IMG/VR virus record: IMGVR_UViG_3300035698_013031
Coordinates: 1-44,843 of that record
Direction: 5' to 3' (one strand)
Origin: a virus
Length of the DNA: 44,843 nt
Positions 7,292 to 9,106 of the stretch are shown here, one piece after another. Below the pieces are notes generated by a model. The model was not told the origin of the DNA, did not search any database, and worked only from the letters and a program-made list of their open reading frames with translations. Within the stretch, counting starts at the first letter, position 1; the number at the start of each line of letters is the position of its first letter. Position numbers and translations under genes: made by a program.

Positions 7292-7508
7292 CCTCGGCTC
7301 CGATCAGATAGCCGCCAAACAAAGCTAATAGCTTGTTGGCGGCTTTCTTTTGGTCTTCATCGATCGTTTCCATTAGATTGTCGTGATTGGGCTTTAAAAC
7401 GGTCCTCACGAACAATCTCCACTGCTTGGTACCTATCCTATCCGGGTACCATTGGAAATAATCCAGACCTAGCTTAACTTGTTCACTTAGAGGCTTGCTG
7501 GAGGACAA
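7263..7508 (-). CDS. Hypothetical protein
   Basis: This 81-residue helical protein starts at TTG 7508. AAAGGAGC lies five bases upstream, which makes the rare start credible. No family is recognised. Its gene overlaps the 52-residue gene upstream by 26 bases and the convergent zinc-binding gene by 29 bases. It also contains the plus-strand terminator hairpin. It is the last gene of the leftward operon. Confidence 0.6.
   Translation of the reverse strand: MSSSKPLSEQVKLGLDYFQWYPDRIGTKQWRLFVRTVLKPNHDNLMETIDEDQKKAANKLLALFGGYLIGAEANQQNEKER
7310..7351 (+). terminator. Intrinsic terminator of the rightward replication operon
   Basis: The arms AGCCGCCAAACAAAGCT (7310-7326) and AGCTTGTTGGCGGCT (7330-7344) pair with two single-base bulges around a tiny loop, and TTTCTTTT follows. 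The T-run lies only on the plus strand, so termination should act on rightward transcripts only. The hairpin lies inside the coding sequence of the opposite-strand 81-residue gene. Confidence 0.8.
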
Positions 7509-7641
7509 TTTCAGCTCCTTTCAACAGCATTGATGGCAAAGAAGTGTCCTTACCCTTGCTGGTTTTTACTCTCCTGGCTGCTTCAATTGTGCCATGGTCC
7601 TCTTCTTTGATCCTGATCGTGTAATTTACTGACTTTTTCAT
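7483..7641 (-). CDS. Small ribbon-helix-helix-like protein
   Basis: This 52-residue protein starts MKKSVNYTIRIKEED, a possible beta ribbon, followed by two helices (about 15-26 and 33-50). The size and pattern are those of ribbon-helix-helix DNA-binding proteins. It has a good ribosome binding site (AAAAAAGGAGAAG). It lies between the GHKL-like ATPase gene and the 81-residue gene in the leftward operon and overlaps the latter. The fold call is by pattern, not by a unique motif. Confidence 0.6.
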   Translation of the reverse strand: MKKSVNYTIRIKEEDHGTIEAARRVKTSKGKDTSLPSMLLKGAEIVLQQASK

Positions 7642-7674: not shown

Positions 7675-8946
7675 TTAGAAATAAACTTTCTGCTTATCTT
7701 CCATCATTGTAATAACCTTATTAAACAAAAATTCCTGCATATTCCGGGAACAATCGTTGTATTTGTACTTGATGTGAAGGTATTCCTCAAACACAGCTTC
7801 ACAGACCTTCTTCTTCCCCTGGTCAAAACATCGGTCAGCGATAAGGATATTGTCTCCCTGCACGCTCCCAAGCGTTTCCTTGCTGTCAAAGACAGCGACT
7901 TCGATGTTATAAATGACCTCATACCCGGAATTCTTAAGGAATTCCACAGCTTCATGAAGGTAACTGCTCTGTTTCTCTGTCTTTTCTATGATGTGGAACT
8001 CCCCAAAGTTGTCTGATGCTCCAACCACGCTGATTTTGTTCTTGAATTGCTTCACCAGAGCAGTCACAAGCGATTTATTTAGGACCAGGCAGTTGCCCTC
8101 AGAGACTTCTTTCTGATAATGACCCTCAACCTCTGCAATAACAAGCCTACGGTTGCCAATAACCTTAAGCCAGTCCTCATTAAACGTGCCCTCAGACCAG
8201 CGGAATAGGTTCTCAATGACCTTTTCTTTCTGGTTGTCATAGACTTTCTTGATCATAGCCTTGTTGGCGTTCTTCGTGAAGATCTCGCAGATCCTCCAGG
8301 TATCATCACTAGAATATTTGAGTGTTCTGCTCTCATTTATGTCAATATCCTTAACGTCGTAATGGAACAAAGAGTCGTAGCTGCTTTTATGGCATCGGAT
8401 CCCTCGCCTGTAAATGATATAGTTCTCTCCCCCTACGAAAGCTTTCATATCATCGTTGTAAAACACGAGATCGCTGCGCTTATTAGAGAAGTATTCATCC
8501 CATTTGTCCAGGCACGCTTCGATCGCAGGCGTTACTTCAATGAAAAACAGCGTCTTGTCGAAGTCTGGCATAATTTTATCTTCTTCTACAACCTGTATAT
8601 CGCTACCCTTTTCATCAAGAGAATTGCTGTAGATCTCTCTGATAGCGTACCATGGCTCCCAATCTATCCCCATTTCTATGGTCAGCCCGGTTGGTTTCTT
8701 GTTGATAAAGATTTGGTTGAATGTTTCTTGGCGGAATTTCTTTTTCTTCGTAGAAACAACAACCTCTTTAATGCCTGAAAATATTCTCACGTTGATCTTG
8801 TTCCTTAATAACACAGCCAGGCCATACTTAAGGCCTGACCCAAAGAACCCTATCTTGTCTTGGTTCCTCTTGGTTGACGCACCAATTAAGAAAAAGGCAT
8901 TCATGTCAATTTCTCCGTCATTCTCGATTCTAATGTACTTTTTCAT
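7675..8946 (-). CDS. GHKL-like ATP-binding protein with permuted motif order
   Basis: This 423-residue protein carries elements of the GHKL (gyrase/Hsp90/kinase/MutL) ATP-binding fold. An ENDG (residues 8-11) resembles the DNG of the G1 box. GASTKR (22-27) and IGFFGSGLKYG (32-42) match the lid and G2 box as seen in MutL, Hsp90 and MORC proteins. AIREIYSNSLDE (101-112) closely resembles the N-box of MutL (ELxxNSLDA), with E104 and N108. In ordinary GHKL proteins the N-box comes first, so the order here looks circularly permuted. The C-terminal half is not recognised. The ATG at 8946 has AAAAAGGAGAAG upstream; an open frame to 9279 crosses iterons and is not credible. Phage relatives exist, with no known function. 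Confidence 0.7.
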   Translation of the reverse strand: MKKYIRIENDGEIDMNAFFLIGASTKRNQDKIGFFGSGLKYGLAVLLRNKINVRIFSGIKEVVVSTKKKKFRQETFNQIFINKKPTGLTIEMGIDWEPWYAIREIYSNSLDEKGSDIQVVEEDKIMPDFDKTLFFIEVTPAIEACLDKWDEYFSNKRSDLVFYNDDMKAFVGGENYIIYRRGIRCHKSSYDSLFHYDVKDIDINESRTLKYSSDDTWRICEIFTKNANKAMIKKVYDNQKEKVIENLFRWSEGTFNEDWLKVIGNRRLVIAEVEGHYQKEVSEGNCLVLNKSLVTALVKQFKNKISVVGASDNFGEFHIIEKTEKQSSYLHEAVEFLKNSGYEVIYNIEVAVFDSKETLGSVQGDNILIADRCFDQGKKKVCEAVFEEYLHIKYKYNDCSRNMQEFLFNKVITMMEDKQKVYF

Positions 8947-8993: not shown

Positions 8994-9040
8994 GAACGAA
9001 AATTTCGGGATTTTTTTTAAAAAAAAGTAGGATCCTAATT

Positions 9041-9106
9041 CTGTGTATAACCTGTGTATAACCTGTGCAAAACCTGTGCAAAACCTGTGCAAAACCTGTT
9101 AATAAC
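9041..9106. repeat. Six-unit 11-bp iteron array with DnaA boxes, candidate origin
   Basis: Six 11-bp units stand head to tail: two of CTGTGTATAAC, three of CTGTGCAAAAC and one CTGTTAATAAC. The first two contain, on the minus strand, TTATACACA, a match to the DnaA-box consensus TTATNCACA. The 11-bp period puts all units on one face of the helix. A run of T8A8 lies at 9011-9026 and a perfect 16-bp palindrome at 9116-9131. This is the layout of an iteron-type replication origin or a multi-site operator. Which of the two cannot be decided from sequence. Confidence 0.65.

Follow-up and report, generated by a model that had tools for sequence, protein, structure and literature searches.

To our knowledge, all known GHKL ATPases (gyrase, Hsp90, MutL, histidine kinases, and MORC) share one order of their ATP-binding motifs: N-box, G1, and G2. 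Hsp90 and TRAP1 provide the best PDB matches to the two phage protein models described here and resemble the protein of interest in its predicted layout, where a Bergerat-like domain precedes one of middle type that bears a conserved arginine loop. The phage protein differs from them in motif order, in an Asn replacing the G1 Asp, and in a minigluzincin-like C-terminus that takes the place of the Hsp90 C-terminal dimerization domain. Closer at hand are the PHROG 6077 proteins, among them PaMx11_71 and Vibrio phage proteins annotated as “histidine kinase-like ATPase,” which have the GHKL plus S5-like core, the shared invariant residues and a similar genomic setting, but place the N-box first, have Ser at the G1 Asp position and carry a different C-terminal domain devoid of EExxH. 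The nearest named counterpart is gp29 of Pseudomonas phage YuA (PHROG 8203), which at 29% identity has the same motif order and the same EExxH C-terminus and differs in nothing essential. T4 rIIA is a phage protein with an N-terminal GHKL domain and a variable C-terminus, implicated in a poorly understood form of counter-defence (PMC7824862).

The gene, its family and its genomic setting

The window analyzed here is a 44.8-kb virus record (IMGVR_UViG_3300035698_013031; 44,843 nucleotides). Genes for helicase, primase, and exonuclease lie between 0.4 and 6.7 kb, and one resembling a terminase gene lies at 14.6 kb. The gene under study occupies positions 7675..8946 on the minus strand and encodes 423 aa, with a strong ribosome-binding site (AAAAAGGAGAAGAAAAACATG) preceding the start codon at 8946. 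Residues 3–419 match positions 2–390 of the 394 in the phrog_8203 profile (E = 2.6e-78), making the protein a full-length member of PHROG 8203, a family catalogued as function unknown. Directly downstream, positions 7483–7641 of the minus strand encode a 52-aa basic protein that has its own strong ribosome-binding site and no PHROG match. Just upstream, at 9030–9106, lies an array of head-to-tail 11-bp repeats (CTGTGTATAAC / CTGTGCAAAAC; read on the minus strand, TTATACACAGG / TTTTGCACAGG). Two of the repeats resemble a DnaA box (TTATACACA), and the array may represent origin iterons or an operator.

By tblastn the gene was found in 71 phage records, chiefly those of Pseudomonas YuA-type phages, where it is mostly annotated as hypothetical and now and then as “HATPase” or “metallopeptidase.” A profile scan recovered 363 relatives in IMG/VR and 26 in bacterial genomes; a single-sequence scan of viral contigs and a plasmid search returned none. 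The homologous gene of Pseudomonas phage EKU1 (L010:2993-3850) is apparently frameshifted, the frame changing near the N-box region. When the window protein was scanned directly against Pfam, NCBIfam, and PADLOC, no GHKL match reached significance; a weak sacsin-like match (E = 0.053) covered residues 6–40. The PHROG matches up to E = 10 included no rIIA family.

Within the Mesyanzhinovviridae, the permuted gene is found in the Rabinowitzvirinae (YuA) and the canonical one in the Bradleyvirinae (PaMx11, Ab18). A published account of the evolution of this viral family mentions ATPase for the terminase only (PMC11946847). The genes directly upstream are homologous (gp28 and PaMx11_70, 46% over 69 aa, E = 8e-13), and farther downstream gp39 and PaMx11_73 are 38% identical (E = 2e-25), so that the two orders sit at corresponding positions in sister subfamilies, whether the gene was rearranged where it stood or was replaced. 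Across the wider family a search for a conserved partner gene found none, the most widespread neighbor family reaching no more than 7 of the 69 loci; the protein therefore probably acts alone or with host partners. T4 rIIA differs both in motif order and in having rIIB as a partner.

Motif order compared with the canonical sister family

Translation of the gene places ENDG at residues 8–11, IGFFGSGLKYG at 32–42, and the N-box AIREIYSNSLDE at 101–112, exactly as originally predicted from sequence. The accompanying claim that the N-box follows G1 and G2, the reverse of the standard arrangement, extends to the family, all 116 relatives scored having the order G1, G2, N-box. We conclude that the window protein is a permuted derivative of the GHKL superfamily and not a standard member.

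The comparison with PHROG 6077, a distant relative of PHROG 8203 whose member phiXF1_38 has the ordinary order with the N-box first, makes the exchange explicit. Residues 1–83 of the protein match phrog_6077 positions 43–116 (E = 3.7e-11), and a stretch spanning roughly residues 91–128 matches positions 8–46 (E = 0.0032), that is, the same pieces in opposite order. We then rotated the first 124 residues about a cut point shifted in steps of four residues; the rotated sequences, which served as analysis queries only, were scored on an independent HMM built from 42 canonical sequences. The best-domain score rose from 26 bits in the native order to a peak of 50 bits with the cut at residue 84–86, dropping on either side, and rotation improved the canonical-HMM score in each of 64 relatives. 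Shuffling or reversing the moved segment gave 31 bits, equal to deleting it, and the gain thus comes from the N-box module itself. Alignment of the two family alignments with hhalign likewise produced two swapped matches in the native order (98.1% and 82.6%) and a single 224-column match (99.4%) once rotated, the score increasing from 100 to 149; the N-box module alone landed on canonical positions 23–52 (E = 9e-8).

Open reading frames carrying both modules in all fetched loci are bimodal, with the N-box after G1/G2 in 116 and before it in 87. A duplicated N-box, as in a tandem-duplication intermediate, was looked for and found in none of these 203. When the domains common to both groups are placed in one tree, permuted and canonical sequences are split with a support of 1.0, the pattern that a single event would be expected to give; since the tree has no outgroup, we take the permuted state as derived because the canonical order is universal in other GHKL families. 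Canonical members match Pfam HATPase_c_3 (5.3e-6) and HATPase_c (2e-4). With HATPase_c_3 the best native permuted member reaches E = 0.17 and the rotated window protein E = 0.031, so rotation improves the Pfam matches only slightly; PDB sequence searches with the native or the rotated profile recovered no GHKL chain. Both observations, as far as the rotated queries go, weigh against our reading.

Predicted fold and the displaced module

AlphaFold2 models of the window protein (pLDDT 92.8, pTM 0.83) and of canonical PaMx11_71 (pLDDT 92.8, pTM 0.82) allow the two chains to be compared element by element. The PaMx11_71 model runs through strand 8–15, helix 24–37 (N-box), strands 44–48 and 51–57 (G1), helices 63–66 and 86–96 (G2), and strands 101–105, 108–117, 122–131, and 137–143 before entering the S5-like domain. 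The window model consists of strand 3–10 (G1), helices 15–18 and 38–48 (G2), strands 53–57, 60–71, 74–81, and 84–89, helix 98–111 (N-box), and strands 116–121 and 131–137, followed again by the S5-like domain. Each element has a counterpart of similar length in the other model, and only a strand-helix-strand module is displaced.

Residues 1–83 (8698..8946, minus strand), which match phrog_6077 and in the model comprise the G1 strand, lid, G2 helix, and strands 3–5, normally come second and are now N-terminal. The relocated module, residues 84–121 (8584..8697, minus strand), is normally N-terminal and is delimited by the phrog_6077 match, hhalign, and the model as strand 84–89, N-box helix 98–111, and strand 116–121. 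Strand 6 (residues 131–137; 8536..8556, minus strand) is unmoved, corresponding to canonical strand 137–143, and carries Thr132, invariant in 64/64 relatives; we liken it to the GT strand that ends GHL ATPase domains. The models thus give good support to a move of the strand 0–N-box helix–strand 1 module, normally N-terminal, to a place between strands 5 and 6, and the permutation, as modeled, is one of strands 0–5 nested within the domain. The original prediction of a true permutation stands as regards the permuted GHKL order, for which profiles, predicted elements, and the canonical sister family all speak, but its closed circle of the whole domain does not. The chain after the N-box had been expected to lead back to the N-terminal strand; instead, strand 116–121 continues to 131–137, the usual last strand. 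We rejected whole-domain circularization on the same ground, strand 131–137 with T132 being the unmoved canonical last strand. The arrangement could most simply have originated by tandem duplication of strands 0–5 with subsequent loss of the outer copies.

Foldseek searches with the window model returned Hsp90 chains at the top (6xlf, E = 3.8e-6, prob 0.97), and those with the canonical model TRAP1, topo VI-B, and ParE (prob 1.00). Superpositions of the permuted model have rmsd values above 15 Å because Foldseek is sequential and the domains are flexible. A convergent, unrelated fold bearing chance GHKL-like motifs would involve no permutation at all, and would explain why no direct significant Pfam GHKL match is obtained; short glycine-rich and ExxxN motifs are, moreover, easily found by eye. 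We strongly disfavor this explanation and regard it as very improbable, given that the two swapped pieces match a family that is GHKL by both Pfam and Foldseek and merge into one match once reordered, and that the predicted architecture is identical, element by element, to that of the canonical relative. In our view this is most likely a permuted GHKL-S5 ATPase, a relative of Hsp90, MutL, and the topoisomerase-type ATPases, in which the N-box segment has been relocated; the mechanism we propose for it draws on the residues described below.

Predicted active-site residues and the C-terminal half

Conservation was assessed in 64 non-redundant relatives 26–42% identical to the window protein, in all of which K26, G33, G36, G38, E104, N108, D111, E112, T132, E205, and R207 are invariant. 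The N-box (R103, E104, N108, D111, E112; 8611..8640, minus strand) aligns with canonical R29, E30, N34, and D37, and its E104, N108, and D111 conform to the GHKL N-box pattern. The lid and G2 motif, residues 22–42 (GASTKRNQDKIGFFGSGLKYG; 8821..8883, minus strand), contain K26 and the glycines G33, G36, and G38 of a GxxGxG pattern, and lead into the helix at 38–48 of the model. The G1-like motif N9-D10-G11-E12-I13 (8908..8922, minus strand) is where it was originally placed, but the canonical G1 Asp is not conserved: the motif aligns as N9-x-G11-x-I13, departing from DxGxG with its adenine-binding Asp, and of the 64 relatives 57 have Asn at residue 9, 6 have Ser, and 1 has Thr. Ser56 of the canonical sister family aligns at this position, the G1 Asp being absent from both families.

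In Hsp90, the G1 Asp position reads adenine, and the equivalent D79N change in the yeast protein abolishes ATP binding. Because the G1 Asp is Asn9 here, neither the base preference nor nucleotide binding itself can be taken for granted. That the Bergerat fold is permuted but has ceased to hydrolyze ATP, serving as a pseudo-ATPase scaffold or, owing to the Asp-to-Asn change at G1, binding another nucleotide or ligand, is accordingly a possibility we take seriously while thinking it the less likely outcome; Asn in 57/64 relatives, the absence of the Asp from both families, and the bare recognition of the family by Pfam GHKL models all point toward it. Complete conservation of the general base E104, the Mg ligand N108, D111, K26, the G2 glycines, and R207 at 26–42% identity would, however, be unusual for a dead enzyme. 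From these retained residues, together with T132, we infer that the permuted ATPase binds Mg-nucleotide, closes its lid, and hydrolyzes.

The C-terminal half, which the original prediction left without a recognized domain, proves by hhalign and Foldseek to comprise an S5/Hsp90-middle-like domain followed by a minigluzincin-like fold. The former spans about residues 140–245 (8212..8529, minus strand), with residues 125–240 aligning to the canonical family (hhalign, E = 2.7e-5) and Foldseek matching it to Hsp90. It contains invariant Y196 and E205, and invariant R207 of the INESR loop (INESR / LTEDR); R207 aligns with R214 of the canonical family, where canonical relatives have ERDR, and is reminiscent of the catalytic loop of the Hsp90 middle domain. 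In the permuted fold the N-box would still present E104, N108, and D111, the lid its lysine K26, and G2 its glycines, along with T132 and, from the S5-like domain, R207. With Mg-nucleotide bound and the lid closed, E104 would act as general base in hydrolysis and R207 as the basic residue given by the second domain, as in Hsp90.

The minigluzincin-like domain covers about residues 324–419 (7690..7977, minus strand), for which Foldseek gives selecase (4qhi) a prob of 0.99 and abylysin (4jiu) one of 0.91, although the E-values are only 0.03–0.2. Its fold is shared with selecase, abylysin, and jannalysin, but the matched minigluzincins are small and free-standing whereas the domain is here fused to an ATPase. 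At the place of the metallopeptidase HExxH lies a nearly invariant EExxH-D-[ST]R-Q motif (7735..7788, minus strand), consisting of E387, E388, H391, D398, R401, and Q404, conserved in 63, 64, 63, 63, 56, and 62 of the 64 relatives, respectively. A weak profile match (E = 0.45) pairs the EExxH with HELAH of proabylysin, the first zinc-ligand His being Glu wherever the motif is present. EExxH-D occurs in 103 of the 116 permuted proteins, the remainder being truncated, divergent, or without the domain. Relatives from alphaproteobacterial phages (L007, L009) and alphaproteobacterial genomes (L200-L203) lack the motif; the two phage members are shorter and lack the C-terminal domain. A 555-aa permuted relative (L079:1150-2433 and downstream) lacks the site and carries a C-terminal extension of more than 100 aa.

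Conservation of E387, E388, H391, D398, and Q404 at 97% or more, and the match to a fold that takes in the Wss1/Spartan DNA-protein crosslink proteases (PMC4559962), raise the idea of an ATP-regulated protease, an active metallopeptidase with Glu replacing the first His ligand and acting, for example, on DNA-bound or host proteins. We consider this unlikely, as the class-defining HExxH zinc site occurs in none of the 116 permuted proteins and L007 and L009 do without the domain altogether. In the permuted ATPase that we favor, nucleotide-driven closure, probably of a dimer, would act on the minigluzincin-like domain, whose remodeled EExxH site would be a pseudo-peptidase that binds substrate or else a metal site that has been altered. 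A non-structural, rIIA-like role in host takeover or counter-defence is our guess, offered tentatively.

In the open-access literature, to which our search was confined, nothing relevant was found on permutation of a GHKL, Bergerat, HATPase, or Hsp90-like domain. It is possible, though less likely than not, that this is the first naturally permuted Bergerat-fold ATPase, gating its dimer differently, with a nucleotide preference possibly shifted, and driving a domain of metallopeptidase origin whose conserved EExxH-D-R-Q site is new. If so, the new N-terminus would start with strand 2, which carries G1, inside the nucleotide pocket, Hsp90-type N-terminal strand exchange would therefore be impossible and dimer gating would have to differ, and nucleotide preference may have shifted through the Asp-to-Asn change at G1. 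The GHKL ATPases, including gyrase, Hsp90, MutL, histidine kinases, and MORC, have been studied as thoroughly as almost any machine driven by nucleotides, and a natural phage permutation with a canonical sister family as control makes it possible to test which links along the Bergerat-fold chain are needed for ATP gating and which are not. For a phage family of several hundred members labeled “unknown function,” a fold and testable active-site residues are now assigned, and a conserved fused EExxH domain is brought to light.
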